Positions 27,573-48,127 of a stretch of 57,650 nt of DNA are shown here, in pieces. A program made the position numbers and the translations under genes. The stretch comes from Bacteroidales bacterium (lineage in GTDB: Bacteria; Bacteroidota; Bacteroidia; Bacteroidales; GCA-2748055). Numbering within the stretch: the stretch's first letter is position 1; each line of letters starts with the position of its first letter. The notes under the pieces were generated by a model. That model saw only the letters and a list, made by a program, of their open reading frames with translations. It was not told where the DNA came from and ran no database searches. The stretch spans positions 1 through 57,650 of the forward strand of contig JAGLOO010000017.1 in assembly GCA_023138875.1 (NCBI GenBank), read 5' to 3'.

Positions 27573-27904
27573 GCAGCAGTTGGTCCTATCGCTGTGGGTT
27601 TATATGATCTGCAGAGGAAAGTCCGGGCAGCAAAGGGTACCGCACTGTTGAAAAACAGATGTCTGTGAAGGCATGGTAGCAAAGAAGAAAAAAACCGCCC
27701 TATTACCGGGGTAAGGGTGAGAAGGTAGGGTAAGAGCCTACCAGTGTGGCGGGTGACCGTTACAGCTGTTTGTCCTGCGGACTGAAAGGCCATGTATACC
27801 GGTGTAAAAAAAGTGACCCGCTTCTGCCGGGGGGTAGGCCGCTCAGATAAATGATAGGAATCCTGGTCAAACAGGATACAGAACCTGGCTTATACAATTG
27901 CTGC
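27573..27904 (+). ncRNA. rnpB: RNase P RNA
   Basis: Catalytic RNA of RNase P, which trims tRNA 5' leaders. Diagnostic conserved blocks are GAGGAAAGTCCGGGC at 27614-27628, AGAGCCTACCAG at 27733-27744, and the 3' CAGATAAATGATAGG with ACAGAACCTGGCTTATAC. The ends pair as helix P1: GCAGCAGTTG (27573-27582) with CAATTGCTGC (27895-27904). The length of 332 nt is normal. An intrinsic terminator follows. Confidence 0.95.
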
Positions 27905-27909
27905 TTTTT

Positions 27910-38285: not shown

Positions 38286-41240
38286 TCAATACCTGGGATC
38301 AGGTTTGTAGGGCAGTTTGGCCATCTTCTCCACAGTCATTCCGGGAAATCCGGCTTCTTCAGTGATCTTCCCAAATACCAGGTAAATACCCTTTCCTTTA
38401 TAGGGATATCGATTCAGGGAATCGGGAAAATTTACCACGTCAAAAAACTCACCTTCGGTATCCAGGAACGTGCCGAAATTCATCCACTGTTTGTGCTTTG
38501 TGCGCACATGCTTTACGGTCACAAGGTTGCCCAGCATACGAACCCTTTTTCCCACATGTTTCAGCATATGGCGGGCCAGGACCTGGCCCCGAAAAGAGGT
38601 TTGAAGCAATTCAAAGGCAGGAATGGTGACGGAGAATCCCAGGATCTCCAGTTCATCATAAGCATTTTCCAGGGCAGTCTGTTCCAGTTTAGGAAGGGTG
38701 AACTCCCGTTTTCGGACGGGAAAAAGCTCGCGTATGGGATCTTTCTTTTTCCGCTTTCCAAGGATCAGGTGTGCATCCCATAACAACTCTTTCTTGCTCT
38801 TTCCGGTAAAACGAAGTGCATTGATCCTCAACAGGATGATTGCCTGTTCCAGTCCGATGGGAACACGCTGAAGAAAATTCTCCAGGCTTTTGTAGTCACC
38901 ATGATCGATCCTTTCGCCAATGATTATTTCGGCAATTTGCTGCTCCAGGTTCTGGAGGTGTATAAAACCGATGAAAATATCCTTTCCTGTAATGGAAGTT
39001 TTGAATTCACTCCGGTTGACACAGGGCAGGTGGATGGTGGCCCCCCATCGCCTGGCTTCATTGAAATAGACCCAGGTCCGGTAAAATCCACCGAAATTAT
39101 TGATTACAGCAGTCATAAATTCAAGGGGAAAATGGGTTTTCAGGTAGAGCGACTGGAAACTTTCCACGGCAAAGGATGCGGAATGTGCCTTGGAAAAAGA
39201 GTATCCGGCAAATGAACTGATCTGTCTCCACACCTCACCGGTCAGTTCGTCGGGATATCCACGGTCGTGGCAATTATCAAAGAACCGCTGAGCAATCCGG
39301 TCAAACTCCTTCCTGGACCTGTACTTGCCACTCATGGCCCGGCGCAGCACATCCGCATCGGCAAGGTCCAGCCCGGCAAAGTGGTGACAGATCTTGATCA
39401 CATCTTCCTGGTAGACCATCACACCGAAAGTTTCTTTCAACTGCTCCTCCATGATGGGGTGCAGGTATTCAAAGTCACCGGGATGATGAAACCTGTGAAT
39501 ATACTCACGCATCATGCCCGATTGTGCCACACCGGGCCGGATGATGGAGCTGGCCGCCACCAGGGTGCGGTAATTGTCACACCGCAATTTTGACAGCAAT
39601 CCGCGCATGGCCGGACTTTCAATATAAAAACAACCGTTGGTCTCTCCCGATTTCAACTGCTCCAGTACTGTTGAGTCCTTCTTAAAGTCATCCACCCTGT
39701 GAACATCCACCCGGATCCCCCTGTTGCGCTGAACAATCTCGGCACACTCCCTGATGTGCCCGATTCCGCGCTGACTGAGGATATCCAGTTTTTCAAAACC
39801 CAGGGTTTCGGCCATGTACATATCAAACTGTGTGGTGAGAAAACCCTTTGGGGGCAGGTCCAGTGCTATGTAAGTGGTGAGTGGTTCTTCGGATATAAGC
39901 ACACCTCCCGCATGGATGCTCCTCAGGTTGGGGAAATCCATCAGCTGACTACCGGCTTCATAGATGCGCCGGGTTACATGATTCTCATTCAGCTTGCTTT
40001 CGGGTTCTTTTACCAGCAGGTCTATCTCTTCTTTAGGCAGGCCATATACCTTACCCAGTTCCCGGAAGATGGAGCGGTCACGAAAGGTAGAAATAGTTCC
40101 GATAAGTGCTGTATGCCTCCGTCCGTATCTTTTAAATATATAATCCAGCACCTGGTCACGCTCTTTCCAGGAAAAATCAATGTCAAAGTCGGGGGGGCTG
40201 GTCCGTTTGGGATTGATGAAACGTTCAAAATAGAGATCCAGGTCGATGGGATCCACATCGGTGATCCGCAGACAGTAGGCTACGATTGAATTGGCACCAC
40301 TGCCCCTGCCTACATGGTAGAAACCCCGCGACATGGAGTACCTGATTACATCCCAGGTGATCAGAAAATAGGAGGAAAAACCAAGCTGGTCGATGATGTC
40401 CAGCTCATGCCTGATCCGCTTTATAGCTTCCCTGTTGTTATGCCCGTAGCGGTACTCCATCCCCTCTATGGCCAGTTTCTCCAGCAGGATCTTGTCATCA
40501 TGAAGTGTGCCAGTGAAGGTCTTTTTGTTCTTCACCGTGGTGAAGTCAAATCCCATCCGGCAATCCTTCACGATCCGCTCACTGTTCTTCAGGATCCCGG
40601 GATAATCCTCGTAAGCACAACGCAGCAGGTCCGGCGACAGCAACACCTCGCTCTCCTGTGCCACCTGGTGTGGCTTTAGCTGGCTCAACAGGATGTTGTG
40701 ATCAATGGCCCTCAGGTGCCGGTGGAGTGCGTGATCCTTTTTATGAAGAAAAGTTACAGGATGCCGGACAACCAGCCTTGAATGGTCTGAGCTCCAACGT
40801 GAGGTAAGTATCCTGTTGACCTCACCCGGCTGTACACCGATTAACTCCTGATCGCGCAACTTCTTCCCGCGATCCTCCCGTCCGGGATGATGATCAAAGC
40901 TGTATATGAACCACACATCATTCAGTGGAGGCGCCCTGTCCGGTAAGGGGAGTCCCGACTCGTTGTGGTAGGAGAGAAAATCATTCAGCTCCCTGAAACC
41001 ACCGGGGTTTCGCGCAATGCCCGTATAGAGGTGCCGGTCCCCGTTGCGGTATTCGATCCCGGCGATGGGGTGGATCCCCTGCTCATTGCAGGTTTTCACA
41101 AAATCCACCATGCCCATGGAATTATTGATGTCTGTCAGCGCCAGCACTTCGATGCCCAGTCTGGCCGCTTCCTCCACCAGCGTCTCCACTGCCATGGTTC
41201 CATACCTCAGACTATAATATGAATGGTTGTTTAAATACAT
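38286..41240 (-). CDS. dnaE: DNA polymerase III alpha-type, short (damage-inducible copy)
   Basis: A 984-residue C-family polymerase, shorter than replicative DnaE (about 1160). It has an N-terminal PHP domain (LNNHSYYSLRYGTMAVETLV), the palm with SPPDFDIDFSW (catalytic Asp pair), GRGSGANSIVAYCL, fingers, helix-hairpin-helix and an OB-fold near VRMLGNLVTVKHVRT. It starts 7 bp after dinB on the same strand and is divergent from a LexA-like regulator. This context points to an error-prone, damage-induced polymerase similar in role to DnaE2/ImuC rather than the main replicase. No imuA-like gene is nearby. Confidence 0.9.
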   Translation of the reverse strand: MYLNNHSYYSLRYGTMAVETLVEEAARLGIEVLALTDINNSMGMVDFVKTCNEQGIHPIAGIEYRNGDRHLYTGIARNPGGFRELNDFLSYHNESGLPLPDRAPPLNDVWFIYSFDHHPGREDRGKKLRDQELIGVQPGEVNRILTSRWSSDHSRLVVRHPVTFLHKKDHALHRHLRAIDHNILLSQLKPHQVAQESEVLLSPDLLRCAYEDYPGILKNSERIVKDCRMGFDFTTVKNKKTFTGTLHDDKILLEKLAIEGMEYRYGHNNREAIKRIRHELDIIDQLGFSSYFLITWDVIRYSMSRGFYHVGRGSGANSIVAYCLRITDVDPIDLDLYFERFINPKRTSPPDFDIDFSWKERDQVLDYIFKRYGRRHTALIGTISTFRDRSIFRELGKVYGLPKEEIDLLVKEPESKLNENHVTRRIYEAGSQLMDFPNLRSIHAGGVLISEEPLTTYIALDLPPKGFLTTQFDMYMAETLGFEKLDILSQRGIGHIRECAEIVQRNRGIRVDVHRVDDFKKDSTVLEQLKSGETNGCFYIESPAMRGLLSKLRCDNYRTLVAASSIIRPGVAQSGMMREYIHRFHHPGDFEYLHPIMEEQLKETFGVMVYQEDVIKICHHFAGLDLADADVLRRAMSGKYRSRKEFDRIAQRFFDNCHDRGYPDELTGEVWRQISSFAGYSFSKAHSASFAVESFQSLYLKTHFPLEFMTAVINNFGGFYRTWVYFNEARRWGATIHLPCVNRSEFKTSITGKDIFIGFIHLQNLEQQIAEIIIGERIDHGDYKSLENFLQRVPIGLEQAIILLRINALRFTGKSKKELLWDAHLILGKRKKKDPIRELFPVRKREFTLPKLEQTALENAYDELEILGFSVTIPAFELLQTSFRGQVLARHMLKHVGKRVRMLGNLVTVKHVRTKHKQWMNFGTFLDTEGEFFDVVNFPDSLNRYPYKGKGIYLVFGKITEEAGFPGMTVEKMAKLPYKPDPRY

Positions 41241-41247
41241 GCTCTCT

Positions 41248-42504
41248 TTACCTATACCAGTACCGCCACCGCCTGTTCTTCAGGTTATCGATCTGTTGCC
41301 GTTTTTCCGGTGAAGTCCCGGCCTTTTGTTGCTCTGACTGCTGTGCCCGCTCTTCCAGGTCGTGAAGCTGTATACCACTGGCCCTTTTTACCGAATCGGA
41401 TCCATAGCGTTTGCGCAGCTTATCCACTGCCAGGTAGAGACGGACCATCTCCGAAGTGTCTTCGAACAGGTTCAACTGCTGTACACCGCGGATCAGGCCG
41501 GAAAACCTGACCCCCACAAGCCGGATCAGCATGCGCCGCTGATAAAGCCGGTCAAATAATTCCCTTGCAACAGGCATCAATACATGATCAAAAGAGGTAT
41601 AAGGAACCCGCTTCTGCAGGGTGTGGGTGTCAAAATTGGAATAACGGATTTTCACCGTGATACAGGAGGTGAGCTTCTCCTCATTGCGCAACTGGAAGAC
41701 CAGTTTTTCCACCATGGAAGTGAGCAGATCGTGCAGTCCCGCCACATCCATGGTATCCCGCTGAAAGGTCCTCTCACTCCCGATGGATTTCCTCTCAGAA
41801 TATTGAACCACGGGGGTGTGATCAATGCCGTTGGCCTTTTTCCAGATCACAATGCCATTTTTTCCCAGCAAGCTGTCCATCATCTCCATCGGGATCTGTC
41901 CCAGGGTGCCGATGGTGGAGATCCCCATGGAACGCAGCAGGTGAAAGGTCTGGTTCCCGATCATGGGGATCTTCCGGATCGAAAGGGGAGAGAGGAAGTC
42001 TCTCACCTGCCTGTCCAGGACCTCGATCTCCCCGTTGGGTTTGGCCTCCCCTGTGGCGATCTTTGAAACTGTCTTGTTGACCGAAAGAGCACAGGAGATG
42101 GGCAGTCCTGTCTCTTTTTTGATGCGCTGTCTCAATTCATGGGTCCACTGCATGCACCCAAAAAAACGGTCCATTCCCGTAATATCCAGGTAGTGCTCAT
42201 CGATGGAAGCCTTCTCATACACGGGAGCCTGTTCGGCGATGATGCCGGTGACCATTCGTGAGTGTCGGCTGTATGCATCCATGTCTCCCCGAATCACAAT
42301 GGCCTCACTGCAGAGCGACCGAGCCATCTTCATGGGCATGGCCGAATGCACACCGAAACGCCTTGCTTCATAACTGCAGCTTGAAACCACACTGCGGTCT
42401 GACATGCCCCCGATGATCACAGGTTTTCCTTCAAGCTTGCTGTTCATCAGCCGCTCCACAGATACAAAAAATGTATCCAGATCCATATGCACAATATTTC
42501 GCAT
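41248..42504 (-). CDS. dinB: Y-family DNA polymerase IV
   Basis: A translesion polymerase. With the ATG at 42504 (a GTG at 42513 is also possible) it begins MRNIVHMDLDTFFVSVERL, with D8 as a metal ligand; the second active-site motif is SIDEH with D102 and E103. All catalytic residues are intact, unlike ImuB. QLNLF near residue 345 fits the beta-clamp-binding motif. The C-terminal tail is long, polar and basic. First gene of the dinB-dnaE operon, it lies just downstream of two operator-like palindromes shared with the divergent S24 repressor. Confidence 0.94.
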   Translation of the reverse strand: MRNIVHMDLDTFFVSVERLMNSKLEGKPVIIGGMSDRSVVSSCSYEARRFGVHSAMPMKMARSLCSEAIVIRGDMDAYSRHSRMVTGIIAEQAPVYEKASIDEHYLDITGMDRFFGCMQWTHELRQRIKKETGLPISCALSVNKTVSKIATGEAKPNGEIEVLDRQVRDFLSPLSIRKIPMIGNQTFHLLRSMGISTIGTLGQIPMEMMDSLLGKNGIVIWKKANGIDHTPVVQYSERKSIGSERTFQRDTMDVAGLHDLLTSMVEKLVFQLRNEEKLTSCITVKIRYSNFDTHTLQKRVPYTSFDHVLMPVARELFDRLYQRRMLIRLVGVRFSGLIRGVQQLNLFEDTSEMVRLYLAVDKLRKRYGSDSVKRASGIQLHDLEERAQQSEQQKAGTSPEKRQQIDNLKNRRWRYWYR

Positions 42505-42539
42505 TATACTCACTTCGGTCCACTTTTTTTACTATTTTT

Positions 42540-42577
42540 GATTAGAATATAATCATTCGTGTGATTACAATATAATC
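42540..42577. promoter_or_regulatory. Tandem operator palindromes GATTA-N5-TAATC
   Basis: Two 15-bp palindromes, GATTAGAATATAATC (42540-42554) and GATTACAATATAATC (42563-42577), lie 23 bp apart (about two helical turns) in the 103-112-bp gap between dinB and the divergent XRE/S24 regulator. They differ at one central base. Position and symmetry make them likely operators for the regulator, controlling both directions. Confidence 0.75.
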
Positions 42578-42616
42578 ATATATCATATTTTACACAACAA
42601 TAAACACTGTTTTAAC

Positions 42617-43432
42617 ATGTATTTTGATTCGAACATTAAACTCCTGCGCAGGCGCAAAAACCGGACACAGGATGAGGTGGCGGAGCAGCTCCGGATGAAA
42701 CGCTCTACCCTGAGCGGATATGAGAACAGGGTGGCACAGCCCGGACTGGAAGTACTGCTGGTGTTTTCAGACTATTACCATATTGCGGTGGATACGTTGC
42801 TGAAGGTGGATCTTTCGAAATTGAGTGAAACTCAGCTTCGGCAGCTGGAACATGGAGAAGATGTGTTTTTACGTGGTGGGAACCTTCGGGTACTTGCATC
42901 CACGGTCAATGCTGCTAACGAAGAGAATATTGAACTGGTACCGGTGAAGGCCCAGGCGGGCTATACCAGTGGTTTTGCAGATCCGGAATACATCAGTGCT
43001 TTGAAGGTGTTCCAGCTTCCTTTCCTGTCAGGAGAGAAGAAGTACAGGACCTTTCAGTTGCAGGGTGACTCCATGCTTCCCATCCCCGAAAAAGCATGGG
43101 TAACCGGTGAATACGTACTGAATTGGAAAGAACTAAAAACGGGGGAAGCCTGCGTGGTCCTGACCATGGATGAGGGTATTGTTTTTAAGATTGTTGAAAA
43201 CAGGATGGAACAGGATGGGATGTTGACCCTCTATTCTTTGAATCCATTGTATGAACCCTATGAGATCAATGTAAATGAGATCAGGGAGATATGGAAATTT
43301 GTACACTTTATCAGTCATGAGATCCCGGAACCAGTAATTCCGGAGAATCAGCTTGTACGGACAGTGGTCAGTCTGAAACAGGACCTGGATCGTTTGAAAC
43401 TGAGTATGCCTGGAGAGGGCAGGGGGGACTAA
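42617..43432 (+). CDS. XRE-HTH / S24 peptidase repressor (LexA-like)
   Basis: A 271-residue regulator: N-terminal XRE helix-turn-helix (residues about 6-62, TQDEVAEQLRMKRSTLSGYE) and C-terminal S24/LexA-type domain. The expected self-cleavage site A114-G115 lies in KAQAGYTSGF, the nucleophile is S152 in LQGDSM and the general base K191 in VFKIVEN, so the dyad is intact. Such proteins are inactivated by RecA-stimulated self-cleavage after DNA damage. It is divergent from dinB-dnaE across two palindromes and probably represses that operon and itself. Confidence 0.9.
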   Translation: MYFDSNIKLLRRRKNRTQDEVAEQLRMKRSTLSGYENRVAQPGLEVLLVFSDYYHIAVDTLLKVDLSKLSETQLRQLEHGEDVFLRGGNLRVLASTVNAANEENIELVPVKAQAGYTSGFADPEYISALKVFQLPFLSGEKKYRTFQLQGDSMLPIPEKAWVTGEYVLNWKELKTGEACVVLTMDEGIVFKIVENRMEQDGMLTLYSLNPLYEPYEINVNEIREIWKFVHFISHEIPEPVIPENQLVRTVVSLKQDLDRLKLSMPGEGRGD

Positions 43433-43442
43433 TGTCATGTCA

Positions 43443-44045
43443 TTAGTTCAATCCGAAATCATTGCCCAGCAGGGTTTCCTGGTTCCGGATTATTTTCAGG
43501 TACTGAAGCTGTCCTGCCAGGTAACCCTCTTTTTGTTCAGCGTCCGGCATGCATATAAACCGGTACTTGTCATCGGAAGAGAGATTGAGCGCTTTGATGA
43601 TATCCTGGTGCGTGATGGCTGAATGATTGCAACAACTGAGAAATTCCGAATCAAATTGATCCGTATAATCCTTAACCAAAAGAATGAGGTCCTGGTTTTG
43701 CACATGATCAGAACCGGGCAAACGCCTGATCGCACTACCGGCATAGAGCTTGCCTTCAAGTTGTCTGGTAATACTGATGATCTGCACCACCGAAACAGAT
43801 TCCACAGTGATCACCATCCTGCCCTTGGAATTTTCCGCCACCACTTCCTTCAATTTCACTTCACACCCAAATTCCTGAACCTCCTGGTCAATCACAAATG
43901 GTATGGCAAATGTGATGCCTTTGGTACGCGCGTCCTCAATAAGCTGTTTATAACGGGGTTCAAAAATCCGCAGGGGGATATCCTCTCCGGGAAAGAGAAA
44001 AACGCCTAAAGGAAAACAGGGGATTATTTCAGATTTTTTTTCCAT
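43443..44045 (-). CDS. LON substrate-binding domain protein
   Basis: A protein of about 200 residues made of the N-terminal (LAN/PUA-like) domain of Lon without ATPase or protease parts: IPCFPLGVFLFPGEDIPLRI, then FEPRYKQLIEDA. Stand-alone versions are widespread and may bind substrates or adapters; the function is not known. The ATG at 44045 gives the usual N terminus; the frame is open to 44072. It is convergent with the S24 repressor gene (10-bp gap) and divergent from the SRAP gene. Confidence 0.88.
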   Translation of the reverse strand: MEKKSEIIPCFPLGVFLFPGEDIPLRIFEPRYKQLIEDARTKGITFAIPFVIDQEVQEFGCEVKLKEVVAENSKGRMVITVESVSVVQIISITRQLEGKLYAGSAIRRLPGSDHVQNQDLILLVKDYTDQFDSEFLSCCNHSAITHQDIIKALNLSSDDKYRFICMPDAEQKEGYLAGQLQYLKIIRNQETLLGNDFGLN

Positions 44046-44154
44046 GCAGTAACTGCTATGCAATTTTAACAATCGATGAATCAGAATTGTTTAACTTTTA
44101 ACTTTCAAACTTTGTATATTTCTAACATTCTAACATTCTAAACATCTAACTCCC

Positions 44155-44880
44155 GTGTGTTTTACCATTGAAGTGCATTTGACGAGAAAGGCCATCGAAA
44201 GCAGGTTTTCGGTGGATACTTCGGCATTATATGATTTTGATTTCAGCTATTTCTACAGGGCATTCAGTCATCCATTCATTCCTGTGATCACTCAGGAGAA
44301 TCCCAATCATATACAATTGATGCAGTGGGGATTGATCCCATCCTGGGCAGGAGACCGTGATAAAGCTATGCAAATCAGGAAAGGTACGTACAATGCAAGG
44401 GCTGAATCTTTGCATGAAAAGCCCTCTTTCAGGGAGCCTCTGCGAAATGGACGTTGCAGTGTCATTGCCCACGGTTTTTTTGAATGGCAGCTTCTGAATG
44501 GAGTGAAGGTTCCCTGGTACATCCGGTTGAAAAACAATGCGCCTTTTGTATTTGCAGGCTTATATGACAGGTGGAACGATCCTGATAGTGGGGAGGTCTG
44601 TAATACATTTTCTATTATTACGACCAGAGCCAACCCACTCATGGAGAAGATCCATAATACAAAGAAGAGGATGCCGGTGATCCTGGATTCCAACGTTGAG
44701 TCTGAATGGATCACAGGTGATATTTCCATTCACAAGGCCAATCAGCTCCTGCTGCCTTTTGATGAGGGGAAGCTTCATGCCCACACCGTCTCACACAGAA
44801 TCTCGCAGGCGAATGCAAATCCTGATGAACCTGATATCATTCAACCTTTCGATCATCCGGTTACAGGATCCTTGTTCTGA
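44155..44880 (+). CDS. SRAP-domain protein (YedK/HMCES-like)
   Basis: SRAP proteins form a covalent thiazolidine link through Cys2 to abasic sites in single-stranded DNA and protect them during replication. The start is decided by this: GTG at 44155 followed at once by TGT gives Met1-Cys2. Other family residues are present: N in YNARAES, E in HGFFEW, and the conserved His near MPVIL (here a Ser/Glu-containing variant follows). It is 241 residues long. It sits beside the dinB-dnaE-S24 module, matching its SOS-associated role. Its promoter may include TATATTTC just upstream (about 44115-44122). Confidence 0.9.
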   Translation: MCFTIEVHLTRKAIESRFSVDTSALYDFDFSYFYRAFSHPFIPVITQENPNHIQLMQWGLIPSWAGDRDKAMQIRKGTYNARAESLHEKPSFREPLRNGRCSVIAHGFFEWQLLNGVKVPWYIRLKNNAPFVFAGLYDRWNDPDSGEVCNTFSIITTRANPLMEKIHNTKKRMPVILDSNVESEWITGDISIHKANQLLLPFDEGKLHAHTVSHRISQANANPDEPDIIQPFDHPVTGSLF

Positions 44881-44903
44881 GAATTCCCACACCATTATCA
44901 ACA

Positions 44904-44932
44904 GGTTGCTTCTTGAAGGCAAGACTGCAACC
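44904..44932 (+). terminator. Hairpin after the SRAP gene
   Basis: GGTTGC (44904-44909) pairs with GCAACC (44927-44932), and inside it TCTTG pairs with CAAGA around an AAGG loop. It lies 24 bp after the SRAP stop. The following bases are ATTTAATAT, without a pure U-tract, so terminator function is plausible but not certain. Nothing else is seen up to the promoter at 45031. Confidence 0.45.
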
Positions 44933-45030
44933 ATTTAATATATAAACGTATACAATTCAGTGTGGCAACCTTATTAACTATTTGTTAATAATTCCTGTTC
45001 ATTCAATGTTCAATTCTTCGATCAAATTAA

Positions 45031-45062
45031 TTTGGACTGAATCAATAAACCATCTAAATTTG
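45031..45062 (+). promoter_or_regulatory. Consensus promoter of the noncoding transcript
   Basis: TTTG (45031-45034), a 20-bp spacer and TAAATTTG (45055-45062) match the Bacteroidota housekeeping promoter TTTG-N19/20-TAnnTTTG at every defined position. Transcription should begin near 45069-45070, where no start codon of a plausible gene follows. Confidence 0.7.
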
Positions 45063-45069
45063 ATACCAT

Positions 45070-45494
45070 CAAGTGAGCGATAAAAGGCCACTCAGTTCTT
45101 TAAATGTTAAATCATTAGCACCCGGGGTAACCCGGATGCGTGGATATGAGTCACGAGAACAGATAACCAGGTATTGATGCTGTTCTCCCCCGATCTTCGG
45201 ATCGGACTGTTGGCTGGAATACCGAATGGGTTGTAAAAGGCTCATTCAGAGATTCAAACGGAAACCGTAGCATACCTGAAAACGCGGTGAAAGTTGTTAA
45301 CAGTTGAGCATTACTTTCTGTCTTCGGACAGCGACGATGCAAGTTACCCGATTCGTCGGGTAGCACGAGGGAATTCAAGACTTCGGTCAGGTTTTCCGGT
45401 CACAATAACAGTAGCTTGGCGCAAATTAGCGACTACGGTAGCTAACGAGTGGAATGGGAACCAGATGCAAATTTGGATCCCATTCGTGTTTTTT
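45070..45494 (+). ncRNA. Candidate large structured noncoding RNA
   Basis: About 425 nt between a consensus promoter and an intrinsic terminator, with no convincing ORF. Local hairpins: CCGGG/CCCGG with GUAA loop (45122-45135), CGTG/CACG (about 45139-45155), GAGAACAG/CTGTTCTC (45154-45187), CCGATC-UUCG-GATCGG (45190-45205), CTGTC-UUCG-GACAG (45318-45331), TACCCGA-UUCG-TCGGGTA (45345-45362), GAC-UUCG-GTC (45379-45388) and TTAGC/GCTAA with a UACG cap (45426-45445). CCACTC-A-GTT (45088-45097) pairs with AAC-GAGTGG (45444-45452), closing the whole domain. It is not tmRNA, RNase P, 6S or SRP RNA by any motif seen. Relation to a group II intron domain I is possible but no domain V was found. Confidence 0.6.
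45452..45494 (+). terminator. Intrinsic terminator of the noncoding RNA
   Basis: GAATGGGA (45452-45459) pairs with TCCCATTC (45478-45485). After one mismatch a further six pairs (CCAGAT with ATTTGG, one G-U) are capped by a GCAA tetraloop. GTG and a run of six T follow (45489-45494). This is a strong rho-independent terminator. Confidence 0.85.
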
Positions 45495-45797
45495 ACCCTT
45501 CATGTCCCAACTTTCCCACTGCCTCACGCTCTAACTTCAACTTTTGACTAACAACTTCCTATAGTTTATTAAAGGACTTAAAACCTCCCATTAAAGTGAG
45601 TTTTTCTGTGCGAAGAGCCGTCATAGTATAAAATATATGATGCATTCGCATCGCTTCTATGTATAATCTAAAAAACTGAAATACAAATTGATACATCTAT
45701 TAACAGAGGAAAGTTAATATCATGGCATTGAACTTTTTTAGTCGGATTGGTTTAATCTATAGTTTTGTTGTTGGAAGCAGATTAATAGTTAGTATTT
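45495..45797 (+). promoter_or_regulatory. Gene-free spacer with promoter for the serine hydrolase
   Basis: No gene was found in this spacer. It holds a small hairpin, GATGC-ATTC-GCATC (about 45641-45654), and near its end TAGTTTTG (45760-45767), an exact TAnnTTTG -7 element about 30 bp before the ATG of the downstream gene. The -33 position is TTTA-like. Transcription would start near 45774, leaving a leader of about 24 nt. Confidence 0.5.
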
Positions 45798-47135: not shown

Positions 47136-47197
47136 TTGTTTTAACAGGACTGCTACGGATATTCCTTTTATATTTGAGGCAACCGTTGAAGGACTTA

Positions 47198-48127
47198 ATG
47201 GAATTATCATCTATACACCATATCGATTCTGAAAAGATTCATGATTTTGACCCAGATCTTTTCATTACCACCCTTGGTTATGAAACGCGATGTACAACAA
47301 TAGCAAGATTGTTCGAAGACCGGGATTGTCGAAAAATCGCACTTTCGCACTCCTATAATCATCTCAAGGAATTCTCGTATGAAAAAAACCTGGATTATTT
47401 CAACGAAAGGAATTATGAGATTATCCCGGTTGAAACTGCAGTGCCTGATCTTGGTGTTATACTGAAACATCTTCCAGAAGAAAATATTAACATCATCTTT
47501 GATTGCACCAGCATGTCCCAAAGATGGTATTACGAATTTTTCAGGTGGTTCACTGAAGATCAGGTTGATTATGCTTCTGCCAATCTGCGGTTTGTGTATA
47601 CCATGGCCAACTATGTGGATCCGGGTCCTGCTCAGAAAGTGAAAAGGATCAAGGAGTTCCTGAAAACCGAGGAGAGGACCAGAAGAAAGAAGAAACGGGC
47701 TCTGATCCTGGGATTAGGACATGAAGAAAATGTTTGCGAGGCAATTTATAATATCGTAAAGCCCGATCTTCTCTATCTATACTACGCCGATCCTCCTGTT
47801 GACAAACAATTTGTGGAGAAAGTATTTGTAAACAACCATGCACTGATCAATGCCACACCCATCAGAAACCTGATTGCTTATCCCCTCCGCAATGGTCAGC
47901 TTATCTACCAAAGTCTGATCGATACCATTCTTCCATTGCGAAATGAGTATGAAATTACCCTTGTACCCGTGGGACCAAAAATATTCTCGGTGGTAGCCAT
48001 GCTGGTACATCTTGGTTATCCCGATACATTGATCAGCTACCCCGTTTTCAAAAAGAGACCATCAGTTGACCGGCATCCCAGTGGTGAACCCGTTGTGCTG
48101 GATGTGCGTTTTGAAGGTGAAGAATAA
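47198..48127 (+). CDS. Unknown protein with GYETR and DCTSMSQR motifs
   Basis: This protein of 309 residues (ATG at 47198; the frame is open from a TTG at 47174) was not assigned to a named family. The N-terminal half looks like an alpha/beta Rossmann-type domain with TTLGYETRC (residues 24-32) and NIIFDCTSMSQRWYYEFF (98-115). The second half (from about 164) starts with KKRALILGLGHEENVCEAIY and includes LYYADPPVDKQFVEKVF and ITLVPVGPKIFSVVAMLVHL, perhaps a second alpha/beta domain. There is no signal peptide. The GYExR and D-x-[TS]-S-M-x-x-R pattern resembles uncharacterised proteins sometimes encoded near defence genes; that is recollection, not a search result. Confidence 0.7.
   Translation: MELSSIHHIDSEKIHDFDPDLFITTLGYETRCTTIARLFEDRDCRKIALSHSYNHLKEFSYEKNLDYFNERNYEIIPVETAVPDLGVILKHLPEENINIIFDCTSMSQRWYYEFFRWFTEDQVDYASANLRFVYTMANYVDPGPAQKVKRIKEFLKTEERTRRKKKRALILGLGHEENVCEAIYNIVKPDLLYLYYADPPVDKQFVEKVFVNNHALINATPIRNLIAYPLRNGQLIYQSLIDTILPLRNEYEITLVPVGPKIFSVVAMLVHLGYPDTLISYPVFKKRPSVDRHPSGEPVVLDVRFEGEE

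Follow-up and report, generated by a model that had tools for sequence, protein, structure and literature searches.

The window analysed here (the whole stretch of 57,650 nucleotides) is contig C9 of a 4.79-Mb genome, in 87 contigs, of a bacterium of the Bacteroidales. It carries a noncoding RNA gene (45068-45494), which lies between the end of a SRAP gene (44880) and the start of a beta-lactamase-family gene (45798) and is, like its promoter and the array upstream of it, on the forward strand; we infer the start of the RNA from the promoter and its end from the terminator. The promoter (45031-45062), which we take to be of the Bacteroidota type, can be read directly, with a -33 element TTTG (45031-45034), a spacer of 20 bases and a -7 element TAAATTTG (45055-45062); the RNA would start 4-6 bases after the -7 form TANNTTTG. 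At the other end there is an intrinsic terminator (45452-45494), recognized in the sequence and in the genus and 3′-domain comparisons, with a hairpin of 14 pairs (45452-45485) followed by a T run. Neither of these two signals appears in a generic scan, which is designed for sigma-70 hexamers and short hairpins without interruptions. An earlier note had proposed here an undescribed large noncoding RNA with its own 20-bp-spacer promoter and strong terminator, and this proposal has held up well, the RNA being free-standing, conserved, covarying and without a match in Rfam 15. In all 50 members that blastn or the 3′ model had detected without use of the promoter (the window among them), the form TANNTTT[GA] holds the same position, 4-6 bases before an AYC start, vs. 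5 of 3267 control positions; the picking of the 5′ box favoured T-rich upstream DNA, and the count remained 50 of 50 without the promoter bonus. The folding energy of the 429-nt stretch was reached by none of 100 shuffles (z -4.5). As the note had also held, there is no credible ORF: the longest ones inside the RNA have 33-54 codons and none is conserved. The sole recurring frame (from a TTG near base 234) meets a stop after 3, 4 or 19 codons in three of the 13 genus sequences, including that of the window, and is shifted in three others; since no frame kept in all 13 genus members was found, we rejected a peptide gene.

The window was scanned with the 4227 models of Rfam 15, accepting scores at or above the curated gathering threshold. 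These models presumably include those of group II introns, tmRNA, RNase P, SRP, 6S, OLE, GOLLD and ROOL. The only match was a class A RNase P RNA gene (27573-27908, 184.7 bits), with nothing at the RNA. Even at E up to 10, the stretch 44881-45797 gave just two chance-level matches, and the loci of 28 relatives gave tRNA and TPP only. The tmRNA of this genome is on contig C63 and its small SRP RNA on C17, both over the cut-offs. As these genes and that of RNase P are located elsewhere in the genome or window, the RNA is none of the three, in line with the earlier claim that it matches none of the ubiquitous large bacterial RNAs.

The RNA was detected by blastn in 22 of 61 genomes, namely the window's own, 13 of the 17 others of the genus, seven of the 10 others of the family and one of 33 genomes of the order outside the family. 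With a covariance model (R1) built from 21 sequences of the 3′ domain, 84 of the 393 genomes searched in the order had it (E up to 0.01). By the wider model R2, 26 of 28 family genomes carry it, all 10 near-complete ones among them, and 16 of the 28 have at least two matches. In a phylum sample (at least 90% completeness) the RNA is rare, R2 finding it in seven of 392 genomes, the window's own included. The counts for the order and the phylum are lower bounds, as scans of over 40 genomes had stricter filters. A 5′ pattern limited to the end of the promoter and the 5′ box, run on a genome collection, matched at least 118 stretches. Among the matches listed, 80 loci were examined, and the 3′ model, which is blind to this box, recognized the 3′ domain in 69 of them (E below 1e-4). 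Nine of the other 11 have the 5′ box no more than 610 bases from an end of the DNA, past which the RNA would extend, leaving L158 and L159 (Runella), which are not near an end; L158, from a record titled Gammaproteobacteria, suggests a chance match or a mislabelled bin. The record titles among the matches listed include Bacteroidales, Bacteroidetes, Prolixibacteraceae, Cyclobacteriaceae, Draconibacterium, Maribellus, Cecembia, Mariniradius, Aquiflexum, Runella and others, and the RNA is present in at least two orders of Bacteroidota. From 125 matches of the 3′ domain, nine were left out of the pair counts (L039-L042, with a 5′ variant GCGTATAAA not known to the script; L102, L151 and L181, with a 3′ anchor that was not recognized; L120 and L162, with no 5′ box). 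The remaining 116 (106 distinct) are related, and the counts given below are not counts of independent events; 105 entered the BoxA and promoter counts (one is without upstream DNA) and 103 the array counts.

Almost certainly, the RNA of the window belongs to a new Bacteroidota family of large structured RNAs with free-standing genes. By comparison with what has been catalogued, this family, with members of ca. 250-650 bases, is one not previously described. The literature searched on the RNA, BoxA and DnaA boxes, with most subscription papers and supplements lying outside it, does not describe this RNA, nor do the passages and abstracts of PMC5725501, PMC9723704, PMC12286853, PMC2864571 and PMC9723947.

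As the alignment of the members establishes, this is a conserved RNA gene that comprises a closing helix (P1), a conserved internal loop, a variable structured domain and a 3′ hairpin domain with the terminator. A model of 13 genus members (113 pairs) had 97.8% of its cells paired, far lower when slid, and 24 of the pairs had changed on both sides (shuffle mean 9.6, none of 500 as high); further pair types were no better than in shuffles (118 of 500 as high). In the 3′ domain (21 members) 10 of 20 pairs had changed on both sides, with 98.1% of cells paired vs. at most 47.5% when slid. Both structures, which supply the covariation that the note had named as a check, were drawn up with the same sequences in view. 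The note had also proposed an enclosing helix (45088-45097 with 45444-45452), which has to be abandoned: compensatory changes are absent from it, and among 13 relatives one of its pairs is broken in seven and another in eight. The closing helix supported by the comparison is P1, in which UCAAGU (45069-45074) pairs with GCUUGG (45414-45419), followed by P2, in which GGCC (45086-45089) pairs with GGUC (45398-45401). Across the 106 distinct members the consensus is YCARG with CYUGR for P1 and GGCY with RGYC for P2, with 881 of 954 cells paired, a number that falls to 429 or less on sliding. Of the nine pairs, five (three of them in P2) were above all 1000 shuffles and three vary too little to judge, while there is no support for the fourth pair of P2 (paired in 68 of 106, hardly above the shuffle mean). 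Inside the genus (13 members) P1 has no double change. RNAalifold, run with no structure given on nine Cyclobacteriaceae-type members (L128 was left out of the ten), returned P1 and put the 5′ strand of P2 in a local hairpin instead.

The internal loop beside P1 is strongly conserved among the 106 members, both on its 5′ side (GAGCGAUAAAA, 45075-45085; nine of 11 positions at 95% or above) and on its 3′ side (ACAAUAACAGUA, 45402-45413; nine of 12 positions at 93% or above), the consensus being UGAGVGAUAAAA opposite AUAAUAACNGUAR. By eye, its GA/GUA edge suggests something like a loop-E motif. The conservation of the 5′ strand of P1, the 5′ side of the loop and the promoter end reflects in part how members were selected, as the 5′ pattern fixed part of these in the 55 of 105 members found with it. 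The middle of the RNA varies in length, with 145-553 bases between the two conserved boxes. The four UUCG hairpins reported earlier are present there, and each of their helices has changed on both sides in relatives: 45190-45205 (loop 45196-45199; helix 8 of the genus model, three of six pairs), 45318-45331 (loop 45323-45326; helix 15, three of five), 45343-45364 (loop 45352-45355; helix 16, three of nine) and 45379-45388 (loop 45382-45385; helix 17, two of three). As to the other tetraloops claimed, GUAA and GCAA are there, but the UACG is part of a conserved loop of 10 bases (45431-45440). A pseudoknot of 7 bp between CAGGUAU (45168-45174) and AUACCUG (45272-45278) is paired in 13 of 13 genus members with no double change, and has one double change in L037. 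The 3′ domain (45420-45451) consists of a CGC/GUG helix and the hairpin carrying the loop GACUACGGUA (45431-45440), and seven of the eight pairs of these two helices have changed on both sides in the 21 sequences. L089, L147, L178 and L180 do not have the ACUACGG loop and carry a shorter hairpin instead. A pairing of ACUACGG with the upstream NGUAG was considered by eye and dropped.

The position of the gene on the chromosome is stable within the window's family, in which all 20 loci have a beta-lactamase-family gene after the RNA (in one case behind an additional short ORF) and 18 of the 20 have a SRAP gene before it; the other two are L037 and a contig starting at this point. The neighbours in other families are ordinary genes, e.g., relA and, presumably, dnaG, a carboxylase subunit and flotillin-like genes, and no neighbouring gene common to the families was found among the loci compared. 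The next downstream ORF (at least 70 aa) is on the same strand at 20 of 37 loci. As strand and neighbours both vary in this way, there is no common target in cis, which favours action in trans, and regulation of the next gene was rejected as the role of the RNA.

The same alignment establishes two kinds of signal at the gene, a Bacteroidota-type promoter with a DnaA-box-like array at a fixed distance, and a BoxA-like element in about half of the members. The array (44971-45015) lies just upstream of the promoter and is composed of TTATTAACT (44971-44979, inverted), TGTTAATAA (44983-44991), TGTTCATTC (44996-45004) and TGTTCAATT (45007-45015), of which the third and fourth are degenerate in this copy; the spacings of 13 and 11 are also the commonest in other members. 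In the 72 of 103 members that can be anchored on one box, the consensus is GTTATTAACAATTGTTAATAAC, followed by CTGTTNATA and TGTGNATA at 13 and 24 bases, and the commonest box reads TTATTAACA. At least two boxes, each with at most one mismatch, were found in 96 of 103 members vs. six of 364 flanks of the same size, three of 103 AT-rich flanks and a mean of 8.9 (at most 13) of 103 dinucleotide shuffles; the latter two controls were added because the flanks are less AT-rich than the upstream region (0.57 vs. 0.71). None of our searches used the DNA in which the array lies. Strict TTATNCACA occurs in 14 of 103 members (none of 364 flanks, shuffle mean 0.9), the boxes of the window being variants, and canonical TGTGGATAA is repeated in members such as L124 and L241. 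Judged by the DnaA box consensus, we regard these repeats with moderate confidence as candidate DnaA boxes. The array could bind another protein, given that boxes 3 and 4 of the window are degenerate and that strict TTATNCACA is found in only 14 of 103 members.

Like the arrays of oriC, dnaA-type promoters, datA and DARS, this one is made of repeated 9-mers at a spacing of mostly 11-13 bases, but it stands at a fixed distance from the promoter of one RNA and has no GC-skew switch beside it on two long contigs. No lasting switch was seen at the RNA on G600:C2 and G307:C9 (400 kb each), and the locus was rejected as the chromosomal origin. Skew on shorter contigs was too noisy; on G000:C34 a value of about zero turns negative close to the RNA (36.7 kb), but the DNA to one side of it is too short to judge by. 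The dnaA genes of Bacteroidales that were examined have no such array. Within the roughly 340-370 bases upstream of dnaA, a box cluster was seen in only one of 12 genomes, G600 (where the TGTGGATAA cluster lies about 330 bases upstream), and boxes of the form TTATNNACA occur singly in three of the 12 (G490, G292, G600); an array copied from dnaA promoters was rejected.

The BoxA-like antitermination signal GTTCTTTAAAT (45095-45105) came out of the variable part of the RNA, of which GTTCTTT is the most widespread 7-mer (50 of 106 members). It is found in 50 of 105 members vs. a mean of 2.2 (at most six) in dinucleotide shuffles, seven of 105 on the reverse strand and 11 of 173 flanks. Its position differs by lineage: the window's family has it close to the 5′ end, many longer members at about base 150. 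It is missing in about half of the members, including 10 of 10 of the Cyclobacteriaceae type. The 16S leaders of G003 (same genus as the window) and G064 have GTTCTTTGAA, in G003 in the form AGTTCTTTGAAAATATTGAAG, and in G003 the element occurs twice more downstream of 16S; the third leader examined, that of G292, is without GTTCTTT. According to PMC5725501, the gamma-proteobacterial consensus is GYTCTTTAANA, from which the element of the window differs at one of 11 positions. The putative element agrees both with this consensus and with the rRNA leaders of the lineage, but here it sits inside a separate RNA gene, and in about half of the members.

From these DnaA-type and rRNA-protection-type signals, the RNA family may be a growth-linked RNA machine. 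On the anatomy of the gene we lean, with only slight assurance, towards a trans-acting RNA that scaffolds an RNP and whose synthesis is linked to DnaA and protected in the manner of rRNA. DnaA, or a protein with the same site preference, would bind the array just upstream of the -33 element and set the output of the promoter, tying the RNA to replication and growth state. NusB-S10 would then bind BoxA and let the long untranslated transcript escape Rho, the protected transcript would fold while being made, as rRNA does, and the finished RNA would act in trans as an RNP scaffold, with the core of P1 and internal loop as the protein site and the variable domain as the lineage-specific part. There is a parallel in OLE RNA, which works as an RNP. 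Like OLE (and GOLLD, ROOL and the raiA motif), the RNA is large, free-standing and highly structured, with conserved stretches and an unclear biochemical role; unlike them, it has no Rfam match, belongs to Bacteroidota, has ends closed by P1 with a conserved internal loop and carries a DnaA-box-like array. It is also conceivable, but in our opinion unlikely, that the RNA couples replication initiation to ribosome synthesis in many Bacteroidota, through DnaA-set output, rRNA-type antitermination and action in trans via the core.

There are several other ways of reading the locus. One would be a regulatory RNA that base-pairs with mRNAs through its variable domain, which would fit the range of 145-553 bases between the conserved boxes and for which there is a precedent in the phylum, Rfp18 of Flavobacterium. 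We consider it distinctly improbable, as an RNA of this kind would not require so elaborate a conserved core and closing helix. Another is that the RNA is mainly a decoy or sink that titrates NusB-S10 (via BoxA) or ribosomal proteins and in this way tunes rRNA synthesis. The BoxA-like element on the RNA strand of 50 of 105 members, at positions differing by lineage, could be read in this sense, and OLE RNA is reported to hold the ribosomal protein bS21. However, the element occurs once (rarely twice) and in only about half of the members, and the most conserved part, the core of P1 and internal loop, is without BoxA, so that we give the decoy little credence.

We would place no more weight on the view that the DNA is what matters, the array and an active promoter forming a site that titrates or reactivates DnaA, with the RNA secondary. 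Such sites are known, datA titrating DnaA and DARS reactivating it, and an array locked in position in 96 of 103 members, with canonical boxes in some of them, would suit this role. However, the body of the RNA has strong covariation and a highly conserved core, which selection on the DNA alone would not give, and this argues against it.

That the RNA regulates RNA polymerase in the manner of 6S RNA, its apical part being enlarged, appears very improbable. A closing helix followed by a large internal loop does give the RNA a 6S-like outline, and no 6S RNA was over the cut-off in the carrier genomes (RF00013 in none of 10, RF01685 in none of 15), although both models are weak tests, RF00013 being positive in five of 14 control genomes, but not in Bacteroides, and RF01685 in none of the 14. 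On the other hand, there is no 6S or 6S-Flavo covariance-model match at the RNA locus, sub-threshold 6S-Flavo matches lie elsewhere in three of 15 RNA-carrying genomes, and the RNA is far larger and, in the phylum sample, present in few genomes. 6S-Flavo (RF01685) is likewise a noncoding RNA of Bacteroidota, but it differs from the RNA described here, having no match at the locus and only these weak ones elsewhere. Finally, a group II intron remnant, raised in the earlier note, or other mobile element, for which the tandem copies in some genomes could speak, has practically no chance: there is no Rfam intron match, the chromosomal place is the same at 20 of 20 family loci examined, and neither a search of viral contigs with the exact 5′ pattern nor blastn of the window copy against plasmids and phages gave a match.

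To our knowledge, large structured bacterial RNAs are few, and the known ones are either central machines or open puzzles. The RNA described here has a defined core that can be mutated, and 16 of 28 genomes of the window's family have at least two copies. The sites resembling those of the replication initiator and of rRNA antitermination are entry points to the role of the RNA and to the coupling of replication and growth in Bacteroidota.

The genome of the window has two copies of the RNA, on C9 and C34; the second (L083, G000:C34:29000-44000) has its own array and promoter, and its neighbours are, we assume, flotillin-like and SusC-like genes. A third match (E 0.03) was judged by eye to be a chance terminator. 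Tandem copies are found in G181, G098, G064 and G292, and lie roughly 0.5 to 2 kb apart in L087, L088, L089, L090 and L200. The first copy of L089 is at a contig end, and L087, L088 and L090 have a promoter at both copies. The dnaA gene shares a contig with the RNA in seven of 12 genomes and lies within about 20-200 kb of it in six of the 12 (G003, G225, G490, G525, G600, G608), a proximity that is only suggestive, as three of these are from one genus and only shared contigs can be measured. Upstream of the RNA, the window contains a block resembling an SOS-mutagenesis cluster (38286-44880), with a DNA polymerase III alpha paralogue, a Y-family polymerase, an HTH/S24-type regulator, a Lon substrate-binding-domain protein and the SRAP protein, and this block adjoins the RNA in most loci of the family that have a contig long enough to include it. 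Downstream, a 317-aa ORF with no Pfam match (47174-48127) has a homologue after the RNA, again in most of the family loci with sufficiently long contigs.
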